A stretch of 64,000 bases of DNA, taken from the NCBI RefSeq assembly GCF_029212375.1, contig NZ_JARGNU010000015.1, positions 1 through 64,000 of the forward strand, written 5' to 3'. The notes under the pieces are model-generated. The model saw nothing but the letters and a program-made list of their open reading frames with translations. It made no database searches and was not told the origin of the DNA. Shown in pieces: positions 18,090 to 36,355 of this stretch (positions within the stretch are counted from its first letter, which is position 1; every line of letters begins with the position of its first letter). Source of the stretch: Zhongshania sp. (GTDB lineage: Bacteria; Pseudomonadota; Gammaproteobacteria; Pseudomonadales; Spongiibacteraceae). The translations under genes were made by a program, and so were the position numbers.

Positions 18090-18326
18090 CGTACCCTCGG
18101 TCGCCAGTGACTGTGCTGAAAAGCCCGCAGCTATTTTGATCGCCACCGCGCCTGAAAGCCAGACCCTATTTTACCGCGGCAACGAAACGGGTATTGCCAG
18201 CCTACACTAAGTACACCGCCTAATAACCCGACGCGCGCCCATTGCGCTAACAAACGTGGCTTGCCGCGAGTGTATTGTCCATATTGCTTAGCAATGGCAA
18301 ATCGCTCCCCCCTCTTTATTGCGGGC
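18090..18326. other. Intergenic region, nothing recognised
   Basis: No credible gene on either strand. It lies between the start of the MFS exporter and the terminator of the TonB receptor and presumably contains the MFS promoter, which I could not place with confidence. Confidence 0.5.
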
Positions 18327-18362
18327 AAAAAAAAGCCCAAAACCGTTTTACCGATTCTGGGC
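18327..18362 (-). terminator. Rho-independent terminator of the TonB receptor gene
   Basis: On the minus strand GCCCAGAATCGG pairs with CGGTTTTGGGC through two G-U wobbles, followed by eight T. The wobbles become mismatches on the other strand, so it acts only for minus-strand transcripts, about 30 nt after the receptor stop. Confidence 0.85.
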
Positions 18363-18392
18363 ACAAAAGCAATTAGCTAGGTTTGCAGTGGT

Positions 18393-20801
18393 TTAGAACT
18401 CAAGTTTAAGTTTTGCGCCATACAGTTTGGGGGCGCCATAGTTTGCTTGTATACCGTAGTCGTTCTCGAGCAACTGAACAAAATAGAGTTCATCTTTCGC
18501 GTTACTCACGTATCCGGTCAAGGTTAGGCCCAAGGGCTCGTAGATCCAAGATATGCGACCACCCCAAAGCTCATACTGCGGTTGCAGTGCATTGGGATTG
18601 CCCGACGACGTAAGATAAAATTCACTCTTATAGGCGTAATCAATACCAATTTCTATATCACCAAAGGCACCAAACTGCAGGAACTGGTTAATAGAAACGT
18701 TTGAGCTAAAGCGCGGCGTGCGCGCTACGCGATTGCCAGTGAAATCACGGCCAGGAAGCTGGGTTAGCGCGCCAGGGCCGTAAGTTAAGCCGGTGTTTTC
18801 GTCAAAGCCAGAGCCATCTTTATAATCTGTGTAAATCGCGTCGATATAGGAAGCGCCGGTATTAATTGCCAGGCCTGGGTTCAAGTTAGCCATGGGTTGC
18901 CACAGTGCTTCTAACTCTACACCTTCGGTTTGCGACTCGCCGGCATTAAAGAATCGCACCACACCGCCCGATGTTAGCGACACTATCGACGCTATTGGAC
19001 GGTCTGTTGTGGACTGAAAGATGGCGCCATTGAATCGCAGCGTGTCATCAAATAGATCTGATTTAAAGCCGAGTTCAAATGCCGTTGTTGTAGATTTGTC
19101 TACCGCGTCAGGTGCCGAGAAGAAGTTTAGAATATTATAGGTCTGACTTTTAAATGCGCGCGAAGCCGATGCAAACACCTGCACAGAATCGCTGGCAAAC
19201 CACTGCAATGCAAATCGAGGAGCAATTGATTCATCACTGATATCTGGAACAGAGAAATTCGCTACATTGATATTCTGGCTACGATCATCGCCTTTAAAAT
19301 ATTCAATATTGTTTTGTCTATTAACCAGCGGGTCTACAACGTCTAGGTAATTTCTTACCAAACCGCGGGTTTCTTCTTGGTAGCGCACACCCACTGTTGC
19401 GGTTACATTTTCTGTGAGACGGTAATCTCCCTGGGCGTAGATCGAGTCAGACTCGATGGTGATGTTACCACCTGACTCCAAGGTAATTGGTAGACCAGTA
19501 ATAGGATGGAGAATATCCGTTACGATATCTGGCAGTGCATCCAGAATACTGCCTATTCCGGTTTCACCCGATATTTCAAAGAAAATTCGATCAAAGCCAC
19601 CACCCGCTTCCAAGTGATATAAACCCGCAACCCACGTTAAGTCTTCCGAAAGCCATGTTTCTTCGTTGGAGCTTATTTGTAGTTCAAAGGTTTCTTGGAA
19701 TGTTGGCTCATCGTAAGTATGAAAACTGGTGCGTTCAAACTCGGTGCCGTCATAATCGGTGTGGGCGCCAAGATCATTTTGAACATTAGATTTTTGATCT
19801 GAATACACAAACTTCAAGTCGACCGGCCCAGCCGCCCACTCGGCAATAAAGCCCAGCAGATCACTTTCGCTAGAGACAAATCCTGTCACATTATTTTTTG
19901 AAATGCGGTCAGGTTCATCGGGAACAGAGCCTATTGCTAAGCCTAATGGCTTAATATTTTCATTACGCAATGACTCCGCAATAACCTGCTCGGACTCTTG
20001 GTAAATGCCCGTTAATGTAATTGACTCACCCAAAAAATATCGGATCTTTACGCGCAGGCTTTTGGAGTAGTCGTCTAAGGCCTCGGTTTCTGTGCCAAAA
20101 AGCATATTCTTTCCGTACGGTTCGCGCTTGTCATCGTAATAAGATACGGACGCCGCCAAATCTTCGGTTAACGCCGCTGCGCCGTAAAATAGAATATGTT
20201 CAGCTTCGTAATTACCTTTATTGTAGGTAAGCTCGGCGCGATAGCCTTCGGTAGGCAAAGACTTAGAGATAATACTAATGGCACCGCCGGTCGCCGAACG
20301 ACCAAACAGTGTTCCCTGCGGTCCCTTAAGTACCTCTATACGTTCAACCGGACCAATAGCGTCTTGCTTGCCGTGTGAGCCCGCAATATTAATATTGTCG
20401 ATATAAGTAGCAACACTGGGTTCTGAGTTGGGAAGGAATGCCTCACTACCTACGCCTCGCAAATAGATAAGCGTGTAACCATATTGTTCTGTGAAGGTGA
20501 GTCCCGGCGTTATTTTTTGCAAATCTGCGGTGTCTTCAATACCAAAGGCTTCTAACTTTTCGCCACCTATCGCCGCCATGGTGATGGGTACATCTTGCGA
20601 ATTCTCTTCTCGTTTCTGGGCGGTAACTACGACCTCTTCTAATAGTCGGTTGGTTCTTTTCTTCGCTACTGGGGCATCTTGTGCTTCTACAGAAAATGCT
20701 AACAAGGGACTACTTACCACCAATATTCGCGCCGACGTTTTAACGATAGCGCCGAATCGACTTGGCCCGTTCAATGCTCTTATCACCTCAAGTACTCCCA
20801 T
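18393..20801 (-). CDS. TonB-dependent outer-membrane receptor
   Basis: 802 aa. A signal sequence (about 1-40, ending VEAQ) and a TonB-box-like stretch EEVVVTAQKR (about 55-64) precede the plug domain (about 65-180, IERIEVLKGPQGTLFGRSATGGAISIISK). The 22-strand barrel ends in a terminal aromatic (KLKLEF). It belongs to the large receptor subgroup common in marine degraders, used for steroids, terpenes or other hydrophobics as well as siderophores. Context beside a hydroxylase operon, with a shared operator 48 nt upstream, suggests uptake of that pathway's substrate. ATG 20801 has a weak ribosome-binding site; a TTG at 20774 is an alternative. Confidence 0.9.
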   Translation of the reverse strand: MGVLEVIRALNGPSRFGAIVKTSARILVVSSPLLAFSVEAQDAPVAKKRTNRLLEEVVVTAQKREENSQDVPITMAAIGGEKLEAFGIEDTADLQKITPGLTFTEQYGYTLIYLRGVGSEAFLPNSEPSVATYIDNINIAGSHGKQDAIGPVERIEVLKGPQGTLFGRSATGGAISIISKSLPTEGYRAELTYNKGNYEAEHILFYGAAALTEDLAASVSYYDDKREPYGKNMLFGTETEALDDYSKSLRVKIRYFLGESITLTGIYQESEQVIAESLRNENIKPLGLAIGSVPDEPDRISKNNVTGFVSSESDLLGFIAEWAAGPVDLKFVYSDQKSNVQNDLGAHTDYDGTEFERTSFHTYDEPTFQETFELQISSNEETWLSEDLTWVAGLYHLEAGGGFDRIFFEISGETGIGSILDALPDIVTDILHPITGLPITLESGGNITIESDSIYAQGDYRLTENVTATVGVRYQEETRGLVRNYLDVVDPLVNRQNNIEYFKGDDRSQNINVANFSVPDISDESIAPRFALQWFASDSVQVFASASRAFKSQTYNILNFFSAPDAVDKSTTTAFELGFKSDLFDDTLRFNGAIFQSTTDRPIASIVSLTSGGVVRFFNAGESQTEGVELEALWQPMANLNPGLAINTGASYIDAIYTDYKDGSGFDENTGLTYGPGALTQLPGRDFTGNRVARTPRFSSNVSINQFLQFGAFGDIEIGIDYAYKSEFYLTSSGNPNALQPQYELWGGRISWIYEPLGLTLTGYVSNAKDELYFVQLLENDYGIQANYGAPKLYGAKLKLEF

Positions 20802-20848
20802 ACCGAATTTTTATTTGCTGTATTGTCTATTCAGCGACGCCACTATAC

Positions 20849-20865
20849 CCAAACCCTAAGTTTGG
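20849..20865. promoter_or_regulatory. Operator-like palindrome, site A
   Basis: Reads CCAAACTTAGGGTTTGG on the minus strand: CCAAAC and GTTTGG arms around 5 nt, perfectly symmetric. It lies 48 nt upstream of the TonB receptor start. Sites B (24141), C (27487) and D (27608) are close variants. Confidence 0.7.
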
Positions 20866-21037
20866 TTTTTACCCAAGCCTAGAATACTGAGTAGTAGAGC
20901 AACGCTTAGCTCACCTTGAAATTGAATAATGAATCGGCGTGTATTCTGGGATAGCAATATAATTATGTAGTGTTACTACGCCAGAAATATCTTTATATAA
21001 CAAGCCACTAGCACCCGTGATAAATAGCTTCTTAATA

Positions 21038-21832
21038 CTAGCGGCCGGTGAATTTAGCCATTTCGCGCTTGATAAAGGCGCTCACACCAATTTTGAAATC
21101 TGCTGTTTTCGTCGCCGCGCAAAACGCGGCGCGCTCGGCATGGAGTTGCTCCTGAAGACTGTTAGTACGTCCCTCTCGAACCAACTTTTTATATTGGCTA
21201 TACGCTAGGGTCGGCCCCGCCGCGATTTTGGCTGCCAACTTGTCTGTTTCAATTTGCAAATCATTAGCAGACACCAGCTTATTCACCAACCCGTACTGCA
21301 ACGCCTCTTCGGCAGACCAGGTTTCACCTAGGTACATTAAGGCTGCAGCGCGACGCTCACCCAATAGCCGCGGTAAAAAATAGCTTCCGCCGCAATCTGG
21401 CGGTGCGCCAATTTTGTCGTAGGCGAGCATAAACCGCGTTTCGGTGGCGGCAATGCTTAAGTCTGCCGCCGCCATTAGGCTGATACCCGCGCCGGCCACC
21501 GCGCCGTGTACACTGGCCAATACTGGAGCGGGATGATGTTGAAAAGTCATCACCACCGGTTCTAGGGCATCGAGAAGTTGCTTAACGGTGCTATCCGCCG
21601 TATCGAAGTCGCTGGCAAACCCAGCCAAATCACCACCCGCCATAAAAGCGCGGCCCGCGCCCCGCACAATAATGCAACGCAAATCTGGTCGTGCAGCTAA
21701 CTTGGCGGCAACGGATTGCATAGCCTCTGCTGTTGCTACATCTAAGGCATTTAAAACCGCGGGGCGATTCACCGTCATAGTCGCAATTAACCGCGTTTCA
21801 TCTATCTCTAAGGTCGCTAGTTCCATTGCCAT
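21038..21832 (-). CDS. Enoyl-CoA hydratase/isomerase family protein (PaaG-like)
   Basis: 264 aa crotonase fold. The oxyanion-hole segments are GAGRAFMAGGDLAGFA (about 58-73) and VHGAVAGAGISLMAAADLSIAA (about 109-130). The first catalytic Glu of classical hydratases is absent. The second is Asp in APPDCGGSYFLPRLLG, the arrangement of PaaG-type isomerases. Isomerisation or ring-chain processing of a CoA thioester is therefore more likely than plain beta-oxidation hydration. It is last in the hydroxylase-reductase operon, 6 nt after the reductase stop, with GAGGTGG as ribosome-binding site. Confidence 0.87.
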   Translation of the reverse strand: MAMELATLEIDETRLIATMTVNRPAVLNALDVATAEAMQSVAAKLAARPDLRCIIVRGAGRAFMAGGDLAGFASDFDTADSTVKQLLDALEPVVMTFQHHPAPVLASVHGAVAGAGISLMAAADLSIAATETRFMLAYDKIGAPPDCGGSYFLPRLLGERRAAALMYLGETWSAEEALQYGLVNKLVSANDLQIETDKLAAKIAAGPTLAYSQYKKLVREGRTNSLQEQLHAERAAFCAATKTADFKIGVSAFIKREMAKFTGR

Positions 21833-21838
21833 ACCACC

Positions 21839-22906
21839 TCAGCCTGTGGGCATAAATTTATCGGCGTGAATTCGCTCGGGGTTCATACCCATTGCAATCA
21901 ATTTGGCCTCAACGGCATTCACCATCGGCAAGCCGCCACACACAAACGCCGCGACGCTAGAAAAATCCACACCTAATTGCTCATTGATTGGCGCCGTCAC
22001 CAAGCCCCTAGCGCCCTGCCATGTCGAGTTTTCTGGCTCGTGAGATACAATGGGGATGATACGCACCCTGCCAGGAAAACGGGTTTGCAGCGCTGCCAAT
22101 TTATCCATGGCGAATAATTCATTCGCGAATTTAACGCCGAAGATCACTACAAATTTGGCATGAGCTGAACTTGATAAGCGCTGTTCTAAAATAGACAATA
22201 CCGGCGCAAGGCCTGTGCCACCGGCCACACATATGCCAGAGGTATCGGCGTCATCAATACCCATTACACCGTAGGGGCCATGCAACCACATCTTTAGGCC
22301 TGTACGGTCTTCCTTAAACAGCCATTCAGAAAACTGCCCACCTGGTAGCCGCTTTATTAAAAAGCCCACTTCGGTGGCGCCAACGCCAGCTTCTGCAGGG
22401 GGCGCATCGCTAAAGCTAAAACAGCGACGCACAAAGGACCCAGATTCGGCGAGAAAGCCATATTGGCCAGCTTCGTATTGAAACGGCGTTTCTAGGGCAA
22501 TTCTAAGTTCTATTACTTCGCCTGGTAGCCGCTTCCATAGCGATATTCGGCCAGCGACTTGTTGCTCTGGCACCACGTGGTGCTGGCCCAATTTAATCTC
22601 GATATTTATATTGCCGCGCACTTTGCCTTGGCAGGCCAAGAAATAGCCACTTTCGATTTCGGCATTGGTCAACGGCGACAGCGCAAGATCGACCATTGGC
22701 GTTACTTTTCCAGAAATCAATTTGGTCTTGCACTGACCACAAACTCCAACGCGGCAATTGTGGGGATAGTCTATGCCTTGATCTAGCGCGGCCTTAAGTA
22801 GCATGTCATTTCGGTTTACCGAGAAGCCGTCTTTATTTGAGTCACCAACTGACACGGAGCAAATTTGCTCGGCAGCTAAATTGCGCTGCGCGCGTACATC
22901 ATTCAT
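21839..22906 (-). CDS. Ferredoxin-NAD(P)H reductase, XylA-like electron-transfer component
   Basis: About 355 aa. An N-terminal plant-type 2Fe-2S domain has CRVGVCGQCK and a distal FLACQGKV cysteine. The FAD domain carries RRCFSFSDAP, and the NAD domain carries GGTGLAPVLSIL and CGGLPMVNAVEAKL. The order matches XylA and similar reductases that pass electrons from NADH to membrane di-iron hydroxylases. The partner hydroxylase is the gene immediately upstream (27 nt gap). A GTG at 22930 is in frame, but ATG 22906 with GAGG 8 nt upstream is preferred. Confidence 0.92.
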   Translation of the reverse strand: MNDVRAQRNLAAEQICSVSVGDSNKDGFSVNRNDMLLKAALDQGIDYPHNCRVGVCGQCKTKLISGKVTPMVDLALSPLTNAEIESGYFLACQGKVRGNINIEIKLGQHHVVPEQQVAGRISLWKRLPGEVIELRIALETPFQYEAGQYGFLAESGSFVRRCFSFSDAPPAEAGVGATEVGFLIKRLPGGQFSEWLFKEDRTGLKMWLHGPYGVMGIDDADTSGICVAGGTGLAPVLSILEQRLSSSAHAKFVVIFGVKFANELFAMDKLAALQTRFPGRVRIIPIVSHEPENSTWQGARGLVTAPINEQLGVDFSSVAAFVCGGLPMVNAVEAKLIAMGMNPERIHADKFMPTG

Positions 22907-22932
22907 TACTTCTACCTCGTTCAAGCGCACTA

Positions 22933-24054
22933 CTAAGCAAGCGCCATTGCACCTGAATTTAAATTAGATGAGTCGTTATTTAACTCGTCCCAACCCGCGC
23001 GCGTGTTCTCCCTCGCGGCAATTTCTCGCTCTTGGGCGTTGGCGTAGTGGTCATCCCAATCTTTTAATAGAGGCTTCATCGCCATCATGAATAATGGCGG
23101 AATAAACGCCATAATCACGCACAAAATAAAGGGCGGTTGCTTGGGGCCAATTTCATCTGGCGCCAACTCGTAGAACGGCTTATAGCTGTCGTCGTGATGA
23201 CCTGCGTGGTTGGTAATTTCCAAGGCCAAAATTCGGGTAAATGGCGTTAGGTGATTCCATGTGTGATGCTTTTTAAAACGGCCGGGCGTTGCCGAAACCA
23301 ATCCGTAATGATTGCAGTAGTTAAATACTTCCAACTGCATACGAGGGCCGAGAATCAGTGTTGCGCAGGCCAGCCCGCCACCCACCAAACCACCAACGGA
23401 AAACAGCACGGCAAGAAACAGCGAGAAGTACGCAACTTTAAATACCCAGGCATTGCGAAGGTCGTACCACTTGCGGCCGCGCTTGGTCCACATCATTTTT
23501 TCAAGGTGGTAGGACTCTTTCCACTGGCCCGGAAAAGTACGAGTGAAATGGCCGTAAACGGTGTCGCCGCGGCGGGCGTAGTCTGGGTCAGTGGGGGTGG
23601 CGGTATGCATATGATGAGTCACCACATGGGTGATCTCCCGCCAGGGGTCAAACACTAGGCACTGACCAATCCGCCCTAAGGTTCGCAGCGCTAGGCCTTC
23701 GCGGTGAAACAGTTCATGCACTGGCGGCGCGCCAATAACAAAGCCAATCATAACGGTGCCTAAAAACGCGCCGGTCTGCGCTGCGCCGCCAACAAAATGG
23801 CCGTTGCCAGCAAGGTAAGCGTAAAAGAATATATTGGCAAAACACGCTAATACTGTGCAGGTAATTACCGCGTCGTAAATCCACGGATATCGCGTGTCGC
23901 GGATATGATGGCTGGGCTTAAGAAAGGCATCAAAACACAGTATCCACATAAGTACGGCGAAGCCGACCCACGCGTAGGCACCACCAAGCGCCATACCCCA
24001 CGCATGTAATACGAGGATAAACGGTGAAAGTAAGTACTTTATATAGTCGGTCAT
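22933..24054 (-). CDS. AlkB/XylM-type di-iron membrane hydroxylase
   Basis: About 373 aa, the size of xylene or p-cymene monooxygenase hydroxylases. Six or so helices and the histidine boxes HELFHR (113-118), HVVTHHMHTATPTDP (143-157) and NHAGHHDD (282-289), plus NYCNHYGL, form the di-iron site of the integral-membrane hydroxylase family. It likely inserts oxygen into a methyl group of an alkyl-aromatic, terpenoid or alkane. The exact substrate cannot be told. Electrons come from the adjacent XylA-like reductase. A TTG at 24090 is in frame; ATG 24054 with AGGAA is chosen. Operator site B lies 87 nt upstream. Confidence 0.92.
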   Translation of the reverse strand: MTDYIKYLLSPFILVLHAWGMALGGAYAWVGFAVLMWILCFDAFLKPSHHIRDTRYPWIYDAVITCTVLACFANIFFYAYLAGNGHFVGGAAQTGAFLGTVMIGFVIGAPPVHELFHREGLALRTLGRIGQCLVFDPWREITHVVTHHMHTATPTDPDYARRGDTVYGHFTRTFPGQWKESYHLEKMMWTKRGRKWYDLRNAWVFKVAYFSLFLAVLFSVGGLVGGGLACATLILGPRMQLEVFNYCNHYGLVSATPGRFKKHHTWNHLTPFTRILALEITNHAGHHDDSYKPFYELAPDEIGPKQPPFILCVIMAFIPPLFMMAMKPLLKDWDDHYANAQEREIAARENTRAGWDELNNDSSNLNSGAMALA

Positions 24055-24140
24055 GGCTAATTTCCTGTTGTCATTTTCCGGAGGTAACAACCGGTAAAAA
24101 CGTTACAGTGATAGCTTGAACGAAGTTGGGAACAGCCGCC

Positions 24141-24156
24141 CCATCCCTAAGTTTGG
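24141..24156. promoter_or_regulatory. Operator-like palindrome, site B
   Basis: Reads CCAAACTTAGGGATGG on the minus strand, sharing the first 12 bases with site A. It lies 87 nt upstream of the hydroxylase start, inside the 185-nt gap separating it from the LAL regulator gene. Confidence 0.68.
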
Positions 24157-24239
24157 CAATCCAAAATGCCTGCGCTCAGAGAGCTAGCGCCAGAGCCCTG
24201 TTACAAGACTGTGCTTATTTATTTTAAACCCTTTTAAAT

Positions 24240-26933
24240 TCAGTGCGATATAAGACTAAAGCTGCGCGCTTTTGAAATTGCAGAGGAGCGATTGGCAACC
24301 CCCAATTTATTGTAGAGGTTGTATAAATGCCATTTTACAGTGGCAACAGAAACATAGAGGCGGTCGGCAAGTTGCTGATTGGTTAAGCCAGCATCGATCA
24401 GGTGCAGTAGCTCTAGCTCACGTGGGGTGAGCGCTTCCAGCAGTTTTGGCTCTGCATCTAGACCATCAAGTTGCTCGAGCACCGCAATATTGGCAATGGG
24501 CAGGCTTTGGCATATTTCAGTAAAAAATTCTTTTTCTTTTGCGTCGGCAAAACCCCAGCTTTTGGGCTTGGTTTCATTTACCAAGCCAGCAATAAGGTCG
24601 GTCCGATCCCGAAATGGCCGAATATACCGCCGCTTTGCCGCGTAGCTTATGGCGCGAATAAAATGGCGCGGCGCGTTTTCTGGGTTGGTACCACGCATTG
24701 CACAGGTCATTTGCTGCAGCGATAGCTCCACAAGATGACCACCGCGACCCTGTGCTTTTGCAAGCTCAATTGCCTTGGTAATTCTGGCCTCGGCCTGCGC
24801 GAAGCGACCCTGGGCGAGATCTAGGTCGGCGAGGGTTTGATCTATTAAAAAATTAGTTATTGCGCAATGCTTTTCACTAATAGCATCGGCAGTTAAGCCC
24901 ATGCGTCTAGCCTCCTCTAGTGCGCCGTCGAGGCGTCCTAATCGAAGTAAGCGCTGCACGATAAAACAAGACAGCATTATCGACAGCCGCCACGGAAAGC
25001 CTGAGGCAATGTCCCTAAGCTTGGAGATTGAAATACCTTCGCCCAGCGGCGACGCCCAAAGTTTTACGGCGCAATTGAGGGCGTGCGCGGCGGTGTCTAG
25101 CAAACCGTGACTCTGCAATCGATCCATACTGGCGCGCAATAAGTCTGCGGCCTCGGCGTCGCGGCCAGTCTCAACCGCGGTTAACGCTGCCCACGCCGAT
25201 ATGGTGCTGGTCATGCCAGAATAGTCGCCAGCAAAACTCGCAATGCGCGCTATGGTCTCGCCTGCCTTGTCATAGCTATGGCCAAAGTCACCTTCGTAGA
25301 TACCCACGTGAGCCGATAGCACAGCGACCCACGCCGCGCCGTAGGCGCTATTTGCCTGACCAATGCTGTTTTGTGCATCGCCAAAATATTCTCTGGCACG
25401 CAGAAAATTAAACTGGTTGCTAAAGTGTATACCCACCGCGCAAGATACGGTTGCCACATCAAAGGGGTCGTCATCTTGCTTCGCCGCCAACCATTCCATA
25501 CCCATGTGCTCTACCGCCGAAAAATCGTCGGTATAGGTTGCACAGGTAATGCGAATAACCTCAACGCGGCGGCGCATTTCCGACTCTGCGCCACTGGCGT
25601 TAGTTTCTAAGCGCGCCGATAGGCGGTCTAATTGCCTTGCGGCATAATCGTAACGACGATGAAAAACCAAGGCCCAAACATACCAATAATCTGTTTCTAA
25701 GCCGGGTTCGGTGCCCGCGGCAAGAATCCGCTCAACCCAATTGATGTATTTGCTGAGATCGCCGCGGTCGCGCACAAAATTCTGCGCTACACGCTCTAAA
25801 CACTCTACCGCCACCTTGCTGTCGCCCGCTTCCAAAGCGTAGTCGATTGCCTCGGTCCAGCGGCCGCGCTCCTCAAACCAATACGAGGCTCTCAGTAATA
25901 ATTCGCCGCGTTTAGTATCGCTAATGTGCTGGTTGGCTTGGCCGAGCAAATACTCTCTGAAAAGCGAATGAAGCCGGTATTCGTCGCGGTTTCTGCTCAG
26001 GGGAATAATAAATAAATTATCGCTGATCATGCGCTTTACATACGCTTCAGCGGTGCTATTAGAGGTTAGATATTGACACAGCGAAACGGTAAAACTCTTA
26101 ACCAGCGAAATACTAAATAAAAATTCGCGGAAGGACGGTTCAAAGCCGCTAATCAATTGATCGTTTAGCATTTGCGCAAGATCGACATCGGCGCCGGTAA
26201 ACACCTGTAGCAGCGCTGAAGGGTCGTCGGCCTTGCCCAGAATTATTTGCATTAAGCGCAGCGCCGCCGGCCAGCCCTCGCTAATTTGTAGGGCCCGGTC
26301 AATATCTTCGGTGCTTAGCCTGCTATTCAATTTATCGGTAAACATGGCGCGAACACCGTCGGTGTCCAGCATGAGTTCTTCAAATCCGTACTTGCTCACC
26401 ATGCCTTCTAGCATCGGCCTATAAAGATTAATACTCGGCTGCCGCGTCGCCGCTAATAATAAGTAAAACTTGTTGCCGGTTCTTGATATGAGAATCTCAA
26501 TTAGCGAACTGAGCGTTTCATCGTGACACGCATCCAGATTGTCGATAAACAAAAAGACGGGGTCGTCGGTACCAGAAAATAGCGTGGTAACGCGCTCAAG
26601 GCGCTGCTCAATAGGGTCGTCGCTTCGATGTACATCTTCGCTACGAAAATAGCTTTCGCCAAGTGGCGCCAAAAAATATTCTAGCCGCGCCAATACACGC
26701 TCTGCACTGTCGTCATAATCGGATAGGCAAACCCAGTAACTGCTTGCGCCATTACTGACTGCAAAGCTGTATAACGCGCTCATTAAAACGGTTTTGCCAT
26801 AACCCGTGGGCGCAATAATTTGCGACACCTTGGTTGGCGGAAGGCCCAATTCAGTGAGCTTTTGGTAAGCTTTTGTGCGCACGAGCGGAAACGCAAAACT
26901 CGGTGGCTCATGACGCTGCAGGGAGTGTCGCAT
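24240..26933 (-). CDS. MalT-like LuxR-family (LAL) transcriptional regulator
   Basis: 897 aa, the usual size of large ATP-binding LuxR regulators. Walker A is APTGYGKT (41-48) and Walker B FLFIDNLDA (about 128-136). An STAND-type NTPase and helical TPR-like repeats fill the middle (about 380-800). A GerE/LuxR helix-turn-helix ends the protein (ALTPRELELLHLIDAGLTNQ at about 833 onward). Such proteins sense an inducer, bind ATP, oligomerise and activate catabolic promoters. It lies directly upstream of the hydroxylase operon and within 6.2 kb of all four CCAAAC palindromes, so it is the leading candidate to bind them. Confidence 0.93.
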   Translation of the reverse strand: MRHSLQRHEPPSFAFPLVRTKAYQKLTELGLPPTKVSQIIAPTGYGKTVLMSALYSFAVSNGASSYWVCLSDYDDSAERVLARLEYFLAPLGESYFRSEDVHRSDDPIEQRLERVTTLFSGTDDPVFLFIDNLDACHDETLSSLIEILISRTGNKFYLLLAATRQPSINLYRPMLEGMVSKYGFEELMLDTDGVRAMFTDKLNSRLSTEDIDRALQISEGWPAALRLMQIILGKADDPSALLQVFTGADVDLAQMLNDQLISGFEPSFREFLFSISLVKSFTVSLCQYLTSNSTAEAYVKRMISDNLFIIPLSRNRDEYRLHSLFREYLLGQANQHISDTKRGELLLRASYWFEERGRWTEAIDYALEAGDSKVAVECLERVAQNFVRDRGDLSKYINWVERILAAGTEPGLETDYWYVWALVFHRRYDYAARQLDRLSARLETNASGAESEMRRRVEVIRITCATYTDDFSAVEHMGMEWLAAKQDDDPFDVATVSCAVGIHFSNQFNFLRAREYFGDAQNSIGQANSAYGAAWVAVLSAHVGIYEGDFGHSYDKAGETIARIASFAGDYSGMTSTISAWAALTAVETGRDAEAADLLRASMDRLQSHGLLDTAAHALNCAVKLWASPLGEGISISKLRDIASGFPWRLSIMLSCFIVQRLLRLGRLDGALEEARRMGLTADAISEKHCAITNFLIDQTLADLDLAQGRFAQAEARITKAIELAKAQGRGGHLVELSLQQMTCAMRGTNPENAPRHFIRAISYAAKRRYIRPFRDRTDLIAGLVNETKPKSWGFADAKEKEFFTEICQSLPIANIAVLEQLDGLDAEPKLLEALTPRELELLHLIDAGLTNQQLADRLYVSVATVKWHLYNLYNKLGVANRSSAISKARSFSLISH

Positions 26934-27069
26934 AGTTTTTTTACTTATTAGCGGGCAGAAAACAATAACATGAACACTTAGATGCTCGCCAGAGACGATA
27001 TCTTAAGAAGCCTGCAGCAACTTCGCACCAAGCTTCTATATTAAAAACCAGTGCGCTGTGCGCTAGGGA

Positions 27070-27426
27070 TTATCCCACCATAAAGGCAGGAAAATACAAG
27101 AAGCTTAGCCCGATCACCGCGAGCATACCATGCCCCGCATACGTCCAAATTGGCGCCTTCTTTGGGAATAAAACACGGAAGAAAATCAAACCGCCGATGA
27201 GGCCTAGGGAAAAAATACCTAACGACCACCACGCGTAACTTCCGCCCTCGTCGCCAAACCGTAAATTAACCACAAAGAAAGCCGCTAGCCCAAATAGTGC
27301 TGCCATACCATGAACCGCACCAAGCCATGTAGGTAGGGAAACTTTAAGCGTTCGCATTACCGCAATCGACAGTCCGGCAAGGGATATGCTTGCAAAATAG
27401 AGAAATAAATAGAAATACGGAGCCAT
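27070..27426 (-). CDS. Hypothetical four-helix membrane protein
   Basis: 118 aa with four predicted transmembrane helices (about 5-22, 33-53, 66-84, 95-115) and short loops, one carrying NLRFGDEGGSYAWW. Family not recognised. It probably lies in the inner membrane. Site C lies about 60 nt upstream, tying it to the hydrocarbon island. It may help tolerate or traffic a hydrophobic compound, but that is inference from location only. Confidence 0.7.
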   Translation of the reverse strand: MAPYFYLFLYFASISLAGLSIAVMRTLKVSLPTWLGAVHGMAALFGLAAFFVVNLRFGDEGGSYAWWSLGIFSLGLIGGLIFFRVLFPKKAPIWTYAGHGMLAVIGLSFLYFPAFMVG

Positions 27427-27486
27427 TTGAAAACCACTATTATTGAATATTAGGCGGATAGTCTAACACTCTTTAACGGCACAACC

Positions 27487-27502
27487 CCAACCAAAGGTTT
27501 GG
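27487..27502. promoter_or_regulatory. Operator-like palindrome, site C
   Basis: Reads CCAAACCTTTGGTTGG on the minus strand, about 60 nt upstream of the start of the 118-aa membrane protein. A possible -10 element TAGACT follows 21 nt further on; site A has TAGACA at a similar 19-nt spacing. Confidence 0.62.
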
Positions 27503-27607
27503 CTCGCTAATCACGCCTACCCAAACTTCACTCGCCTAGTAGCCGCGCCGCGGTAGCTTAGAGGCCATGCTGCGATCTTATGAAATGTGACGCGGTCCTC
27601 ATGTTTG

Positions 27608-27623
27608 CCAAACTTTGGTTTGG
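27608..27623. promoter_or_regulatory. Operator-like palindrome, site D
   Basis: Reads CCAAACTTTGGTTTGG on the plus strand, 107 nt upstream of the secreted-protein gene at 27731. It faces site C across the 304-nt gap 27427-27730, which otherwise holds no gene. Confidence 0.65.
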
Positions 27624-27730
27624 TGCCCCCAGGCCCAACAAGACGCACACTGGCTTGGCTAAAAAACCAACACCTATTGTTATAACCATAAGAATCGCTA
27701 GATGGGTTTACTGAATCCAAGGAATACACT

Positions 27731-28291
27731 ATGACTAAACGAAGTCTTCCAGCCCTAACCTTGGGTGCAAGTATGCTGTTAAGCGTTTCTGCTGCGCAGG
27801 CACAGTCGATGGCATTTGCAAACCTAGGTTTAGTAAATGGCTTGCCTAGCTTATTGGGCACGCTTTCGTCCAGTGGTGGGCAAAGTTTAGGTCCTCTTAC
27901 CGGCGGCATGTACGCTTTAAACAGCGTACTACCTGCCTTGAATGACCTAACAGTCCTTGTTCCAACATCACTTGGCGGCACAGAAATTATCTTTGGATTT
28001 GTGCCCTCTGCGGAAATTCTCCTCACTAATCCCGTCGGCATTTTACAATTTGTTTCAGATGGCGGAAGCATTCTTTCATCTACACTGGGGCCGGTACCCG
28101 CGATACCACTTATATCTCAACCTTTAGCGTTAGGCGAATTGGGGGGGCTTGGAGGTTTTGGGCTGCCAGGCTTAGACAGCCTAGCCCTACCAGCAAATAT
28201 TTTGCCGCTAGACCTACTTAATCCGACTAGTATCATAGATCAAGTTTTAGGGATTGTGTCCGGATTGGCGTCAGCGGTTCCACCATTGTAG
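27731..28291 (+). CDS. Secreted Leu/Gly-rich protein of unknown function
   Basis: 186 aa. A clear Sec signal peptide (cleavage after SAAQA, about residue 24) is followed by an unusually hydrophobic Leu/Gly/Pro/Ser-rich mature chain with no cysteines, including LGELGGLGGFGLPGLDSLALP. There is no C-terminal anchor. It is the only plus-strand gene amid the island and has site D upstream and a strong terminator 97 nt downstream. An extracellular or surface role in contact with the hydrophobic substrate is possible; no family was recognised. Confidence 0.7.
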   Translation: MTKRSLPALTLGASMLLSVSAAQAQSMAFANLGLVNGLPSLLGTLSSSGGQSLGPLTGGMYALNSVLPALNDLTVLVPTSLGGTEIIFGFVPSAEILLTNPVGILQFVSDGGSILSSTLGPVPAIPLISQPLALGELGGLGGFGLPGLDSLALPANILPLDLLNPTSIIDQVLGIVSGLASAVPPL

Positions 28292-28388
28292 GCACACTTG
28301 GAAGCACGCGTTATTTTAATCAAGCCCTTCACTTTCGCTCATATCGTGATGACGGGCAAGTGCAACCATTAAGACCCATTTCGTCATT

Positions 28389-28413
28389 GCGAGCCGCCGC
28401 GGCTCGCTTTTTT
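28389..28413 (+). terminator. Rho-independent terminator of the secreted-protein gene
   Basis: GCGAGCCGC and GCGGCTCGC form a near-continuous 19-nt palindrome (28389-28407), followed by six T on the plus strand. Confidence 0.88.
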
Positions 28414-28424
28414 AATATTTCCGC

Positions 28425-29174
28425 TTAAATCGCTCGGTGCATTTGGGCGACTGGCACTTGCGCAAGCTGCCGCTTTTTCTCGGTGCTCGCCGCTTTAAGG
28501 GTAATCACGCTCATCGTAATGATCCAACCAAAAAACACAAACCACACAAACCAGAACGAGATCGCGCCGTCATAGGCAAACGGGCCGGTATAAAAGAACT
28601 CAACAAGCCCTGCGGGAACAATCAGAAGCGCTGTCCATAAATTTAAAAAGCCCACCCAACGTGGAAAAATAGGGACGGGGTTTTTGTCGCCAAGTATCGC
28701 CACGGCGATTAGCACCATAAATATTGCAAAGGGCGGCCAGCTTAGAATAAAAACAAACCACACGTAGTCATTGGCTAGCTGTAAAAAGGCAGGATCAAGC
28801 GACTCGGGTCTAAACGCCAAGGCCGCCCACGTAATTGGCATAAGTAGAAAAAACACATAGCCGCCACCGGCGTTGGCAATAGCGGTATAGCTCAATACCG
28901 GCATGCCCCGCTCCATTTTTTTCATAAAAAAGATAATGGACATTGACCAAGTGAGGTAGAAGGTAAAGCCAACGCACTCGATTAAAGTACCCAAGCGGAT
29001 GGCCATTTTGCGGTCGATGTAGATTTGCGCGATTTCGTCGGCGCTTAATGCCGGCGATGGCGGCGGAATAAAGCCCATCAACCAGCCTTGCGCAACAATT
29101 AAAGAGATGACCAACACAATACCCGACCACGCCATTAAACTGACCACGCGCGTGTTCATATACTCGTCTTGCAT
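28425..29174 (-). CDS. Hypothetical six-helix membrane protein
   Basis: 249 aa with about six transmembrane helices. A short loop between the first two contains PPPSPALSADEIAQIYIDRKMAIRLGT. The pattern resembles uncharacterised membrane proteins found next to steroid or terpene catabolism genes, from memory. It is probably last of a four-gene operon that starts at the phosphotransferase (66 nt after the preceding gene). No enzymatic motif seen. Confidence 0.72.
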   Translation of the reverse strand: MQDEYMNTRVVSLMAWSGIVLVISLIVAQGWLMGFIPPPSPALSADEIAQIYIDRKMAIRLGTLIECVGFTFYLTWSMSIIFFMKKMERGMPVLSYTAIANAGGGYVFFLLMPITWAALAFRPESLDPAFLQLANDYVWFVFILSWPPFAIFMVLIAVAILGDKNPVPIFPRWVGFLNLWTALLIVPAGLVEFFYTGPFAYDGAISFWFVWFVFFGWIITMSVITLKAASTEKKRQLAQVPVAQMHRAI

Positions 29175-29240
29175 AACATCTTTTCCTTATCAGTATTATT
29201 CGATTTTTTGCTAAGCAATGGGATGATAGCGGAATTTTCC

Positions 29241-30167
29241 TTAACCGTATTTACCAACGTAATCCCGCGCAAAGTTAAAGTAGTCGCGATTCCAACAAAA
29301 TTCACACCAGCCTACTCCTTGTTCGCCGTCTACGTCTAAGCGCAGCGCCGCTTCGTTGAGGTACACCATGGGGTCAAATTCTAGCTGAATATCGGCAAAC
29401 GCATTGGCACTTATATTGGCGACCCGCCCCGCTTGGTCCACAACGTGGATCTGCAGCGAACGCTGCATCATGTGCTCGTCGTAGCAAAAATCACACTCTA
29501 GCGTAGCTAGGTGTTCCATCTGGCCATCGCGCCACAGGAAGCCTCGCAATTGGCGACGGCCAAACGATTCCATCTCAAAGAAGTGTACCGAGCAGTTGTT
29601 GGTCACAGCATGGAACCACTTATAGTGCTGGTTTAGTCCCCATATCCGCGGCCCCCATGAGTGGTCGCGAATCAAGAACCCGTTGGCGGCCATTTCATGA
29701 CCATCCACCACCAAGTTTCCGCTAATGCGGCCGTGTTGCTCCGTTCGATTATTGCCAAAATACGGAGGATTTCCGGCTGGGTGCAAACTAAAGGCATAGG
29801 GCGGGTGCAGCGCCTCAAATTTAGCGCGGAACTGAAAGCGTTCGCCCATCCATGCTAATTCCACTGACTGATAAGGCTCGCCTACCGCCATGTGCAATGG
29901 CCCTAGCTGCAAGTTATCAAAGTTGGCTGCTGGGGAAATCTGGCTCGCCACCTGCTCGTGAATATCGCCGTCTATACCGGGTCCGATCAGGGTAGCGAGA
30001 ACTTTGGCCTGACCATCACTCAATACCGCCGGATAAATAAAGCCGGCAATTCCCAGCTCTGGAAACATGAGCATATGCGCCATCGACTCGCGTCCGCCGT
30101 CGTGCAATTTATGCCGAAATGCATGCTCAGTGGGGAAAGCCCGTGCGTCATCCGTAAGCGTAGCCAT
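29241..30167 (-). CDS. Lipocalin/CrtC-like fold protein (DUF7064/7065-like)
   Basis: 308 aa, soluble, no signal peptide, rich in predicted beta-strands. The segments GRISGNLVVDGHEMAANGFLIRDHSWGPRIWG and MESFGRRQLRGFLWRDG match a family of uncharacterised proteins (DUF7064/7065, related in pattern to hydroxyneurosporene-synthase-like hydratases). HDHSWG-type residues are common near the ligand pocket of that fold. AAGGAG precedes the start. It is in the phosphotransferase operon; binding or modifying a lipid-like substrate is a guess from context. Confidence 0.6.
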   Translation of the reverse strand: MATLTDDARAFPTEHAFRHKLHDGGRESMAHMLMFPELGIAGFIYPAVLSDGQAKVLATLIGPGIDGDIHEQVASQISPAANFDNLQLGPLHMAVGEPYQSVELAWMGERFQFRAKFEALHPPYAFSLHPAGNPPYFGNNRTEQHGRISGNLVVDGHEMAANGFLIRDHSWGPRIWGLNQHYKWFHAVTNNCSVHFFEMESFGRRQLRGFLWRDGQMEHLATLECDFCYDEHMMQRSLQIHVVDQAGRVANISANAFADIQLEFDPMVYLNEAALRLDVDGEQGVGWCEFCWNRDYFNFARDYVGKYG

Positions 30168-30181
30168 TATTTTCTCCTTGT

Positions 30182-30730
30182 TTATATTTGTGCGCTGCTG
30201 GCCAGTAACGATTCTATACTGGGCACGGCGTCAGGCTCGGGCTCCCAGCCCTGCAATACGACCAGGGCGCGGTCGCGAAGTAGTTGTTGTTTAGAGTATT
30301 CAAGTACTGCTTGCTCAATGCGCAGCGTCGTTTCTGGTGCCGCGGTCTGCCCAGCTTCGCGAACCATGGCGCCGATCATGTAACGGCAATCGCGCACTGT
30401 GTCACATAGTTCTGCCGGATCAATACGGCTGCCCTCCAAAGCAACATTGGCATCGTTGAGTTGGGTTTGGAACTGACACCGCAGCGTTGCTAAGCTGGCA
30501 TCTTGACTAGCTAAACTGTGTAATTTGCTCATTAACGCTACTGACCGCGCCAGTTCATCGCGATCAAATTGGTACTGTAGCGGCGCTTGATGCTGCATTA
30601 AGCGCAACATGCCAAGTACCAGCTGGGCCTGCTCCACGGCAAGGCTATTACTGGGATCAATGGCGGGAATGACCACATCCAACATTGCTTTGCTCATGCT
30701 TTTCAGTTGAACATCTGTGCGTAGTTGCAT
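30182..30730 (-). CDS. Hypothetical helical protein, 182 aa
   Basis: An all-helical soluble protein with no recognised domain. It starts 2 nt after the phosphotransferase stop, with GAGGAGG as an overlapping ribosome-binding site, and ends 14 nt before the next gene. It is therefore translationally linked to the phosphotransferase. That coupling suggests a partner or accessory subunit, by location only. Confidence 0.7.
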   Translation of the reverse strand: MQLRTDVQLKSMSKAMLDVVIPAIDPSNSLAVEQAQLVLGMLRLMQHQAPLQYQFDRDELARSVALMSKLHSLASQDASLATLRCQFQTQLNDANVALEGSRIDPAELCDTVRDCRYMIGAMVREAGQTAAPETTLRIEQAVLEYSKQQLLRDRALVVLQGWEPEPDAVPSIESLLASSAQI

Positions 30731-30732
30731 GC

Positions 30733-31947
30733 TTAAGCCTCCTCTTCAAGCTGGACGCGCATTTGATCTAAGATCATGGAACCCAAGCCCATCAACCAGC
30801 TAATCAATACGTCTTGGTGGGTTTTACCATTTGACGCAACACGATAACCGCTGCCAATAAGTAAAATGGCTAGGCTGTAATTATTATAAATTTTATACCA
30901 CTGTAGCGATTTGACATTTACGCTAAAGCCCGAGGCGCGTTCGTAGGCGTCGAGAAACTCGGCCTCTGGCAACATGCCACAAACGAGTACAGTTTTACCA
31001 TCGCTATCAAGATTGGCGAAGGCGCGGCTGGTGGTCCACGCTAGGTCTTGATGTCGATCACCAATGCGGCCCAACTCCCAGTCTAACCACGCGGTGATTT
31101 TAGCGTCGTGTTCAGTGAATAAGAAATTGCCCAGCCGGTAATCGGAATGAACAATGACCGGCGCTTGTAATTCGGGCATATTGCGTCGCAACCAATTGGC
31201 GGCAACCCGCAACAGGGGAATATCTTCATCGCTGTCTTCTTCCCAAACCCGCTCCCACCAATCCAATCCCCAAGCGGCGCACTGTGTGCCACTATTTGGA
31301 ATATCAAAGGCGCTGAGCTCGGCCTTGCGCCAGTCGTGGCTATGAATTGCAGCTAAGTGACTGGTAAATTGCGGTGCGAGTATTCGGCGTAATTCTGGGG
31401 TTAACTGCGTGCCGGCACCCGAGACGTTACTGGCCGCATTGGAAGGCTTGGTCACCCCAGTGGCAAAACTACATATTAATGCGGGGTATGGCAGGAACTC
31501 GCCGCCCTCATCGCACCAGAACACGGTGGGAACTGGCACCACGCCAGCCATCGCTTTAATCAATTGAAACTCTCTTAAACGACTCGTTTCAACGATGGAT
31601 TCTGCCGGTTCCATGCGCAAGACCATTGCCGTAGATTCTCGCCCCACTTCGGGTCGGTCCCAGCTCAGGGTAAACGCCATTTGCAATTTTGAGGCGCCAC
31701 CAGACAACCAGCGCGCCTCACTAATAACAAAATCTGATCCAATTTTGCTGTGCAGTAAGCTGCTTACCCCATGGGTGAGTTGCGCCAATGTTACGGGGCT
31801 GTAGCCTGGGCCGGCGCGACGCGCCAACTTGCGGCTTAGCAGCTGATCTATTGACGACTCCACGGTATAGCGGCGACGCAGCTCCGCGATCCACTCCGCA
31901 GACGGGTGGTTTTTATCTGGCCGATTTAAACGATTTTTTATTGTCAT
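30733..31947 (-). CDS. APH-family phosphotransferase (ACAD10/11-like kinase)
   Basis: 404 aa. Kinase-like fold with the catalytic loop HSDYRLGN (267-274) and the metal-binding WLDWELGRIGD (287-297), in which Asp replaces DFG. An N-lobe lysine is likely near 87 (GGASKLQMAF). Such phosphotransferases in degraders phosphorylate hydroxylated acyl-CoA intermediates or other alcohols, as in the ACAD10/11 kinase domains. It is first gene of the operon to 28425, with AAGGAAG before the ATG. The substrate is inferred. Confidence 0.83.
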   Translation of the reverse strand: MTIKNRLNRPDKNHPSAEWIAELRRRYTVESSIDQLLSRKLARRAGPGYSPVTLAQLTHGVSSLLHSKIGSDFVISEARWLSGGASKLQMAFTLSWDRPEVGRESTAMVLRMEPAESIVETSRLREFQLIKAMAGVVPVPTVFWCDEGGEFLPYPALICSFATGVTKPSNAASNVSGAGTQLTPELRRILAPQFTSHLAAIHSHDWRKAELSAFDIPNSGTQCAAWGLDWWERVWEEDSDEDIPLLRVAANWLRRNMPELQAPVIVHSDYRLGNFLFTEHDAKITAWLDWELGRIGDRHQDLAWTTSRAFANLDSDGKTVLVCGMLPEAEFLDAYERASGFSVNVKSLQWYKIYNNYSLAILLIGSGYRVASNGKTHQDVLISWLMGLGSMILDQMRVQLEEEA

Positions 31948-32324
31948 ATTGCCGATCTTCCTTGCCAGCGAAACGGTCTAGAGAATTACCACTTAGCGAC
32001 TAGTTTTTTCCTAGGGAAAATGCAAACAGCTAAGCGCAACGCCAAACCTGCAAAAAAGTATGTAAGAGACTGACGTCAATATCTGCCAGTGCTAGCGATT
32101 TGAACAGCTCAATACTTGTGGGCATGGTGGTCGACATTTGCGCGTCCTCTTAATACCGTATTTTATCTTTATAGTTACGGCTTAGGGTAATGCGAGAGGC
32201 GACAAAATAACCTGCACTAAAGTACGGCCTTAGCCGTATTTCATATGCAGCGACGCGAACAATTACAACTTTTAAAGAAATGTGTTTTTTTGATTCAGCG
32301 CCGCCGCGTTTATTCCGCTAGTGC
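31948..32324. other. 377-nt gap with one possible small ORF
   Basis: Apart from the candidate 35-codon frame at 32030-32137, I see no gene, palindromic operator of the CCAAAC type or terminator. It must contain the promoter of the phosphotransferase operon. Confidence 0.5.
32030..32137 (-). CDS. Possible small protein or leader peptide, 35 aa
   Basis: ATG 32137 preceded by AGAGGA at good spacing, encoding MSTTMPTSIELFKSLALADI and a short tail ending at TAG 32030-32032. It lies about 80 nt upstream of the phosphotransferase start on the same strand, so it could be a leader peptide or the first gene of that operon. It could equally be chance. Confidence 0.25.
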   Translation of the reverse strand: MSTTMPTSIELFKSLALADIDVSLLHTFLQVWRCA

Positions 32325-33719
32325 TTAGTTCCGCCTACTTGCCAGCGCGTGCTGATACTCAGCAAAGGATGCCTGAATACAGCTCATAAAAAATGCAATA
32401 TCGGGAAGAATGTTTTCTGTTGAAATCACATTGAAATACAAGTTGCCATTATAACTAGGGGTAGCAATAAAGAGTCCCATGCCTTCGCCAAGCGGAGGCA
32501 GCCCAAACAGACTTTCCAGTTGATGACCCGCAAAGGTAATCGGCTGGGCCGGGCCGGGCACATTGGATACAAATAAATTACATGCCGAGGCCACCGCCGA
32601 GGTCGCATTAAGTGCTCGAGCAAATAGGTACTGCTCAGCCGCAGGCAAACATTTTGTAAGATCCATAAGCAGGCCAGCGCCCGCTTTTTCTGCCTTGCCG
32701 CGCTGGGTTGCCGCATGGATTTTGGCGAGCCGCGCGGCAGGGTCGGCAATGTTGGTATAAATAGGCGCGGTGAACGCACTTATGCTATTGCCACTATCCG
32801 TGTTATCCGTACCACTTGTGGTGCGTGCATTGACCGGCACCCACGCCACCAAGGACTCGGGCGGTAGGTCTGCATGGTGCGCCAAATAGTGCCGCAACCC
32901 CCCGGCGCAAATCGCCAATACCACGTCATTTACTGTTGCACCGCGGTGAAGTGCTCGCAGCGCATTTAATGCGCTAAACTCTACACGGGTCACATCAAAT
33001 ATTTTCTCGCCTTTAACACTCGCGTTAAATCGGCATGCTGGCACAATCTTGCGCTCAGAGGGTTTGGTATTGAGGTAGTGCTTAGCAGACTCGCTAATGG
33101 CTGAGCGACTGTTATACAGAGAGCCGCCAAATTTCAGTGAGTAGCGAAGGCGATTCGTAGTCGCCTTTAACGCCATTGTTTTCCAAGGTAATGCAGCGGC
33201 GTTTGGTTGGGCCGGCGCGGGAGATTCTGGGCTCGTCAAATAAGCCAGTAATTTGGTAATACCAATCCCGTCAATGGCCACGTGGTGTACTCGCAGGGCT
33301 ATTGTAAAACCCTTTCTGTGAGCGCCATTACAGTGAACACCCGTGAATATTGTCACGTCCCATAGCGGCCGCTCCATGTCCATTGGCTGGGAGTGAAGCG
33401 CGCTGATCGCCTCTTGAAGTTGTCGCCAGTCACCCGGGTCGCTCAAGGCGTACACCGCAAAGTGCTCCTCGTGATTAAAATCTTTATCATCAACCCAATA
33501 CGGATAATCCAGCTCAGCGGGAAGACGCATTAATCGCCGGCGATAAATGGAATGGTGCTGTAATTTGTGCTGCAAATAGCCGCACAGCGCAGCGCTGTCT
33601 ACTTCGCTTGCCGCATCATCTGCCGGCCCATCAAAGTTGAGGAGAACGGTGATATGGTTAAAATTATCGTCGGTTTGGGTGTAGAGAAACTGCGCGTCTA
33701 GCGCCGTTAACTGGTCCAT
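32325..33719 (-). CDS. Wax ester synthase/diacylglycerol acyltransferase (WS/DGAT)
   Basis: 464 aa, standard length. The condensing motif HHVAIDG (145-151) follows the PLW motif (118-120). The C-terminal NVPGP segment and the GLPPLGEGMGLF stretch are typical of bacterial WS/DGAT. The enzyme esterifies acyl-CoA to fatty alcohols or diacylglycerol at the membrane, making storage wax or triacylglycerol. In this island it may store carbon from hydrocarbon oxidation. The gene stands alone, 139 nt from the HAD-PlsC gene. Confidence 0.92.
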   Translation of the reverse strand: MDQLTALDAQFLYTQTDDNFNHITVLLNFDGPADDAASEVDSAALCGYLQHKLQHHSIYRRRLMRLPAELDYPYWVDDKDFNHEEHFAVYALSDPGDWRQLQEAISALHSQPMDMERPLWDVTIFTGVHCNGAHRKGFTIALRVHHVAIDGIGITKLLAYLTSPESPAPAQPNAAALPWKTMALKATTNRLRYSLKFGGSLYNSRSAISESAKHYLNTKPSERKIVPACRFNASVKGEKIFDVTRVEFSALNALRALHRGATVNDVVLAICAGGLRHYLAHHADLPPESLVAWVPVNARTTSGTDNTDSGNSISAFTAPIYTNIADPAARLAKIHAATQRGKAEKAGAGLLMDLTKCLPAAEQYLFARALNATSAVASACNLFVSNVPGPAQPITFAGHQLESLFGLPPLGEGMGLFIATPSYNGNLYFNVISTENILPDIAFFMSCIQASFAEYQHALASRRN

Positions 33720-33858
33720 GTTGGTTCTCGCTTAATGCAATAAAGATATTCGCGCCGGTGTGCCTGCGGCCAGCAATATAAGGGAGCTGGCCAACCATGA
33801 CTTGATACCAGCACGGTGTTTTTCTTCTTTGTAAACCGCTACGTTAAACGTATACCAT

Positions 33859-35304: not shown

Positions 35305-35403
35305 TGCGCTTATATCCTTATTTATTGTAATCAGGTCAAAAATCCAAGGATATTTGACAACGTAACCATTATTCAGTCCAATACTATTTCTTCTGTAATA
35401 TTT

Positions 35404-35417
35404 GGTTTACGTATACC
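35404..35417. promoter_or_regulatory. Imperfect palindrome upstream of LysR gene
   Basis: GGTTTACGTATACC has two mismatched positions between the arms (GGTNTACGTANACC). It sits 1 nt before the proposed LysR start in the HAD-PlsC/LysR divergent region, so it could be the autoregulatory site. LysR sites are usually T-N11-A, so this is tentative. Confidence 0.35.
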
Positions 35418-35418
35418 T

Positions 35419-36300: not shown

Positions 36301-36355
36301 ACGGATTTTTAGTGCGCGTTTTATAATAAATTTTTAATTAAAAATTAGTTTAGCG

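Follow-up and report, generated by a model that had tools for sequence, protein, structure and literature searches.

The window analysed here comprises the first 64,000 nucleotides of contig NZ_JARGNU010000015.1 of Zhongshania sp. (RefSeq assembly GCF_029212375.1). It contains a group of catabolic-type genes, four of which are preceded by related palindromes. The gene for a membrane diiron hydroxylase of the XylM/AlkB superfamily (HYD; 22933–24054, minus strand) encodes an FA_desaturase-family protein that matches the AlkB structures 8f6t and 8sbb and resembles XylM at about 31% identity. On the same strand lie genes for an adjacent 2Fe-2S/FAD/NAD reductase (21839–22930; Fer2 and NAD_binding_1 domains, with BenC as top NCBIfam match, under its cut-off), for an enoyl-CoA hydratase/isomerase family protein (ECH; 21038–21832, family ECH_1) and for a TonB-dependent receptor (TBDR; 18393–20801, Pfam TonB_dep_Rec_b-barrel and Plug), 76% identical to its orthologue in the related genome G212. 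A MalT-type LAL regulator with a C-terminal LuxR helix-turn-helix (HTH), the proposed activator, is encoded at 24240–26933 (minus strand). Two further genes specify proteins of no Pfam family: TM4, a four-helix membrane protein (27070–27426, minus strand; the LAL gene lies 136 nt downstream), and LG, a Leu/Gly-rich protein (27731–28291, plus strand) with a signal-like N-terminus as judged by eye.

The palindromes are CCAAACTTAGGGTTTGG upstream of the TBDR gene (20849–20865, minus strand; 5-bp spacer), CCAAACTTAGGGATGGG upstream of the hydroxylase operon (24140–24156, minus strand), CCAAACCTTTGGTTGGG upstream of TM4 (27486–27502, minus strand) and CCAAACTTTGGTTTGG upstream of LG (27608–27623, plus strand; 4-bp spacer). 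A preliminary description of this DNA had placed them at 20849–20865 (−), 24141–24156 (−), 27487–27502 (−) and 27608–27623 (+), and all four sequences were verified there. The common motif is a degenerate CCAAAC-N4/5-GTTTGG, which occurs in two forms: an N5 form at 20849, to which the sites at 24140 and 27486 are degenerate fits, and an N4 form at 27608. The hydroxylase site has poor arms, with two mismatches. The palindromes stand 47 to 107 nt from the start codons of the four genes, 59 nt in the case of TM4. Upstream of eight other window genes (LAL, ECH, 28425, 29241, APH and those which we take to encode MFS, WS/DGAT and HAD-PlsC proteins), the best matches had only 4–5 mismatches.

Allowing up to three mismatches, CCAAACTTTGGTTTGG is matched six times in the window, at five places (the four sites and position 36035), against 0.80 expected; none of 100 shuffles reached six. 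With up to one mismatch, CCAAACTTNGGNTTGG has five matches in the 3.8-Mb genome and its reversed control none, in a scan that is in-sample, the pattern having been derived from these sites. Three of the five fall in a 6.8-kb stretch of the window, the others at C18:34906 and C7:35893. Site 27487 of the window has two mismatches, a level at which the genome yields 55 matches and the reversed control 22. Out of sample, the orthologous locus holds three of the six genome matches in the related genome G171 (P ~9e-7) and two of the five in G212 (P ~7e-5), with region bounds that were chosen once the matches were known. When 250-nt segments were examined, a match with 0 or 1 mismatch occurred in 11 of 4232 random windows from the genus and in none of 1633 from Solimonas. 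By arm score alone, the own-genus hydroxylase sites (two mismatches) reach P 0.027; it is through conservation, not arm score, that they convince. The C18 site lies 150 nt before the start codon (ATG) of a gene for an AMP-binding acyl-CoA ligase, which is unlinked to the window cluster. The product begins MQFTQGLHRAVQQ, as does the ligase of G212, its orthologue. Extension of the CCAAACTTNGGNTTGG scan to multiple genomes gave 40 matches, 30 of them with inspected loci. Among these, CCAAACTTTGGTTTGA, found in G095, G148, G252 and G661, was discarded as a regulon site since it sits within coding sequence, and the ACSL-upstream matches of G171 (143 nt) and G212 (205 nt) were treated as chance.

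The comparison of orthologous upstream regions, suggested in the preliminary description, revealed sites at matching promoters in G212, G171 and Solimonas. The congeners G212 and G171 both carry the TBDR, ECH, reductase, hydroxylase, LAL and TM4 genes; G212 has LG as well (32% identity). Identity to the window proteins is 83% (G212) and 77% (G171) for the hydroxylase and 47% and 55%, respectively, for TM4. The site is present in G212 at the TBDR, HYD, TM4 (as a degenerate copy), LG and aldehyde dehydrogenase (ALDH) promoters, and in G171 at those of HYD, ALDH and a non-orthologous TBDR (33% identity). The TBDR orthologue of G212 has CCAAACTTAAGGTTAGG as the counterpart of CCAAACTTAGGGTTTGG. 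The hydroxylase site is identical in G171 and 94% identical in G212, with 60-nt flanks 18–52% identical to the window; the LG site CCAAACTTTGGTTTGG is identical in G212 and reads CCAACCTTTGGTTTGG in G272 and G291. Taken over all matching promoters, the sites are 82–100% identical as against 17–52% for the 60-nt flanks; for LG in the closer pair G272/G291 the figures are 100% and 65–67%. The ALDH site of G212 and G171 precedes an operon that also encodes an acyl-CoA ligase. This operon is preceded by the motif in four relatives, which extends the gene set originally described. The ALDH/acyl-CoA ligase branch and the activator spacing considered below are the two elements that the preliminary description did not contain.

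The conserved sites share a fixed relation to a −10-like hexamer. Counting from the first C of CCAAAC to the start of the sequence NANNNT, the window hexamers are GACAAT for TBDR (20822–20827, minus strand) and CAAGCT for HYD (24113–24118, minus strand), both at offset 38, TAGACT for TM4 (27460–27465, minus strand) at 37, with an alternative GACTAT at 39, and CACACT for LG (27646–27651, plus strand) at 38. Of 18 sites, 16 have NANNNT at offset 38 (binomial 3e-18) and all have it within 37–39, whereas other offsets average 1.06 of the 18 sites, with a maximum of 5. Sites outside the window alone give 13 of 16 at offset 38 (2.6e-14). The P values are too low, sites of orthologous genes not being independent, and this counts against the interpretation that we favour. 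Addition of two later LG sites, both with hexamers at 39, brings the figures to 16 of 20 at offset 38 and 20 of 20 within 37–39; in the reverse orientation, offsets 36–40 give 0–1 of the 20 sites. Among 24 unrelated palindrome matches taken as a control in both orientations, one of 48 has the hexamer at 38 and 11 of 48 have it at 37–39 (L024 and L052, which lie upstream of LG orthologues, were counted among the sites and excluded from this control). The match at C7:35893–35908 (CCAGACTTTGGCTTGG), about 200 nt upstream of a presumed HAD-PlsC gene, has no NANNNT at 37–39 in either orientation; it was rejected as a regulon site and possibly arose by chance.

If the hexamer is taken as −12 to −7, the centre of the palindrome falls at about −42, the lux box being centred at −42.5 (PMC3376562). 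None of the four window sites showed a consensus −35/−10 promoter. Such a layout is that expected of an activator contacting polymerase directly, and the fixed −10 spacing together with the missing consensus −35 predicts activator dependence. Conservation across genomes and fixed spacing strongly support the earlier proposal of a shared operator controlling this group of genes. The description had named the LAL protein or another regulator as the one in control; that LAL is the protein which binds we consider likely.

The LAL protein combines a MalT-like body with a C-terminal LuxR HTH. The GerE match (1.2e-15) is above the gathering score; those to TPR_MalT (41.9 bits, cut-off 45) and to the MalT model PRK04841 (2.9e-54, below the equivalog cut-off) fall short of theirs, and MalT structure 8bob is matched at 2e-10. 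A search of 293 genomes of the order, 12 genus members included, returned four genomes at E 1e-60, all in the genus and one being the window's own. By neighbourhood, the G212 (64%) and G171 (60%) proteins are orthologous, and the G272 match is only a 38% paralogue. The regulator and hydroxylase genes are linked in the window, G212 and G171. Orthologues were found in G171, G212, G663, G668 and G670. The HTH is strongly conserved among the six orthologues: the recognition-helix region SVATVKWHLYNLY is shared by five of them (G670 has WHLWNLY) and differs in five paralogues.

Part of this evidence comes from Solimonas, where LAL is present at E 1e-100 in 3 of 11 genomes of the genus, S. aquatica among them. 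S. aquatica DSM 25927 (L008; genome G663) has a 71% identical hydroxylase with CCAAACTATGGGTTGGG upstream, TM4 (44%) nearby and LAL (45%) at a contig end; the LAL and hydroxylase genes, both near contig ends, are presumably adjacent. The 17-mer of the window TM4 site, CCAAACCTTTGGTTGGG, recurs identically upstream of the S. aquatica ALDH-ligase operon. In G668 and G670, LAL adjoins the ALDH-ligase operon and a different oxygenase gene with a palindrome upstream, so that the LAL gene is found next to two unlike oxygenases in different contexts. The G670 oxygenase is of the FA_desaturase family, and the G668 gene begins alike, its start codon being uncertain; the G670 ALDH gene also carries the palindrome. 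A comparable arrangement of regulator, oxygenase and receptor was seen in conjugative plasmid p2 of Sphingobium xenophagum (L121), where a 28% LAL relative lies between the genes for a ring-hydroxylating dioxygenase and a TonB receptor.

The sites and their conservation, the distance to the −10 element and the make-up of the gene set, all obtained by computation, lead us to infer that the palindrome is probably the operator of an activator-dependent promoter class, bound by LAL, which would switch on an uptake-oxidation gene set. LAL, a LuxR regulator of the MalT/AlkS type, would respond to the substrate or to a product formed early in the pathway. A LAL dimer would then bind the inverted repeat centred near −42, overlapping the would-be −35 element, and recruit RNA polymerase to the −10 element, 38 nt on from where the CCAAAC half-site begins. 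Joint activation would extend to the TonB receptor for uptake, the operon of hydroxylase, reductase and ECH, TM4, LG and the unlinked acyl-CoA ligase, with ALDH joining the ligase in the activated set of the relatives. TM4 is directly followed by the LAL gene, at a distance of 136 nt in the window, 94 nt in G212 and, with the chosen start, 155 nt in G171, and no terminator was called in the window gap. Since the window TM4 promoter has a site, as does the TBDR ahead of TM4 in G171, LAL may activate itself; co-transcription with the palindrome-bearing TM4 gene would probably provide positive feedback.

Several results weigh against this interpretation, and those on G272, G291, G123 and the three LAL genes examined favour an alternative to which we assign a low, though not negligible, likelihood: that the regulon is real and a regulator encoded elsewhere binds the palindrome, LAL being a passenger or controlling other promoters. 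LG of G272 and G291 (71% identical to each other) keeps CCAACCTTTGGTTTGG 91 nt upstream together with an identical −10, and the search for LAL at E 1e-60 returned nothing from G291 and only the paralogue from G272. G123, likewise without a match at that threshold, has two intergenic one-mismatch candidate sites whose hexamers start at 37 or 39 and whose neighbours are genes of catabolic type: one 20 nt upstream of a gene for a 31% relative of the protein encoded at 28425–29174 of the window, the other preceding a Metal_hydrol gene by 60 nt, with a gene for an aldehyde dehydrogenase nearby. The G123 sites may be chance or belong to a related regulon; in these three genomes a more distant LAL may act, or another regulator may also use the site. 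The 250-nt test detected no site directly upstream of the three LAL genes examined, nor at TM4 of G171 and S. aquatica, SDR1 of G171, the genes for acyl-CoA dehydrogenase in G212 and G663 or the ALDH gene of G668. Lastly, a spacer of either 4 or 5 bp is unusual for a single dimer. On the other side, LAL is the sole DNA-binding protein recognised among the ten block proteins scanned, and no DNA-binding family was recognised among ten further proteins, eight of them G171/G212 neighbours. Moreover, in G668 and G670 LAL stands beside a different, site-bearing oxygenase gene, and −42 is a LuxR-type activator position (PMC3376562). These observations argue for LAL as the binding protein.

Repressors, for instance of the TetR type, can likewise use palindromes of 16–17 bp close to the −35 region, overlapping the promoters. 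Here, the −10 spacing is fixed, none of the four sites has a consensus −35, and no TetR-type family was found among the ten block proteins scanned, making repression very improbable. It is still less likely that the palindromes are intrinsic terminators or repeats arisen by chance. Of the four, the 20849 copy alone, which has a T run, was flagged as resembling a terminator; all stand in front of genes; conservation extends to asymmetric details (GGGATGGGG at the hydroxylase) and to the −10 distance; and chance is ruled out by the genome counts, the 250-nt test, the −10 spacing and site conservation, which together confirm that the palindromes are real.

The genes under the proposed LAL operator suggest a pathway. 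The XylM-like hydroxylase and 2Fe-2S/FAD reductase form a pair of the XylMA type. Together with the aldehyde dehydrogenase, CoA ligase, ECH and further S. aquatica genes, which we take to encode a thiolase, an acyl-CoA dehydrogenase and a DUF1329 protein, they suggest oxidation of a methyl group of a lipophilic compound, followed by CoA activation and beta-oxidation. The "hydrocarbon" of the preliminary description would be a substrate suggested by the enzyme family. That description had also inferred a place in the hydroxylase pathway for two unknown proteins. For TM4 the assignment is well supported, since three other genomes have the gene linked to this cluster. Among 18 congeners, good TM4 matches (47–100%) occur in three, exactly those with the cluster, and weak 32% matches in two others; H39 and H99 are invariant in four sequences. 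As for LG, membership in the regulon is supported, and the gene persists with its site in two genomes that have no cluster at this place, so it may not be hydroxylase-specific. Of 18 congeners, 14 have homologues at E 0.001, many of these being partial and weak, and LG recurs beside TBDR-LAL paralogue clusters (G000-C1, G272 and G212b); it may thus be associated with such TonB receptors in general. In G272 and G291 (L117 and L118, L119 and L120), only LG is present between two genes which are presumably MFS and glmS-like, where the window (18146–36356) has a block of about 13 genes including LG. The hydroxylase cluster has the look of an island, either inserted or deleted, of which LG is the shared remnant.

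Other genes of the block recur elsewhere. The 249-aa membrane-type protein of 28425–29174, of no Pfam family, has homologues close to LAL genes at two places in G212 and also in G272, G670 and contig C1 of the window's own genome (G000), and one in G123 encoded 20 nt after a palindrome match. The genes for a DUF7064/7065 protein, a 182-aa protein and an APH-like kinase (29241–31947) have a second copy at G000:C1, ~85.8–88.4 kb, beside other catabolic-type genes. Paralogous TBDR-LG-LAL clusters are found at G000:C1 (L058, L059) and in G272 (L079, L080); in both genomes the hydroxylase paralogue has tandem near-copies of TTGGCAATAAATGACC upstream, a different, direct-repeat candidate site. In a search of LAL paralogue clusters by a criterion that missed all three positive controls, an inverted repeat 29–31.5 nt before NANNNT was detected at three of seven promoters from five clusters (G212b, G212c and G663C16; null, 34 of 750 windows) and at none of the four G000-C1/G272 promoters or of two promoters of Sphingobium xenophagum. 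The G212b and G663C16 repeats are C-rich, at 30.5 and 31.5; those of G212c resemble other hairpins. This outcome is no more than suggestive. It is conceivable, if somewhat doubtful, that LAL regulators of this type and their targets make up a family of paired modules, each paralogue acting through its own palindrome near −42 on a TonB receptor, an LG-type protein and a membrane oxygenase of its own. Genomes would then suffice to read the uptake-oxidation regulons of such bacteria. On the same view, TM4, with its two invariant histidines, and LG would have novel roles as working parts in membrane hydroxylation or the uptake of lipophiles.

In sum, one activator most likely turns on a whole uptake-oxidation pathway for a lipophilic compound, in bacteria of two genera. 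A repeat spotted by eye becomes a testable operator with exact promoter geometry and a proposed cognate site for a LuxR/MalT-type regulator. The co-switched genes it predicts include the unlinked acyl-CoA ligase gene and two without known family. In other degraders, too, genes could be assigned to pathways by such reasoning.

Among the titles listed by a literature search, with most subscription journals outside its reach, none was on this motif or regulon. The hydroxylase and 2Fe-2S/FAD reductase liken the system to XylM/XylA xylene monooxygenase of TOL-type plasmids. The TOL upper pathway is controlled by XylR with sigma-54, whereas the window has a neighbouring LAL regulator and a LuxR-like promoter layout. 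With LuxR the LAL system shares the GerE-type DNA-binding domain and an inverted repeat near −42 (PMC3376562 for the lux box); LAL differs in its MalT-like body and in having no acyl-homoserine-lactone domain, and the lux box, at 20 bp, is longer than the repeat of the window. AlkB has rubredoxin as its partner; the adjacent reductase of the window is of the XylA/BenC type, and the set includes a TonB receptor, TM4 and LG. AlkS/PalkB of Pseudomonas putida GPo1 and Alcanivorax is the closest described system: a LuxR/MalT-family activator acts there with an inverted-repeat operator upstream of the membrane hydroxylase promoter, and in GPo1 the promoter of the regulator itself has this operator too (PMC8784404, PMC12740625). 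The likeness, drawn from published descriptions, lies in a LuxR/MalT-type regulator and an inverted repeat at the hydroxylase promoter (20 bp for AlkS according to a review, 16–17 bp in the window). Judged by sequence and −10 spacing, the hydroxylase promoter of the window has its inverted repeat at the activator position, as in a regulon of the AlkS type.

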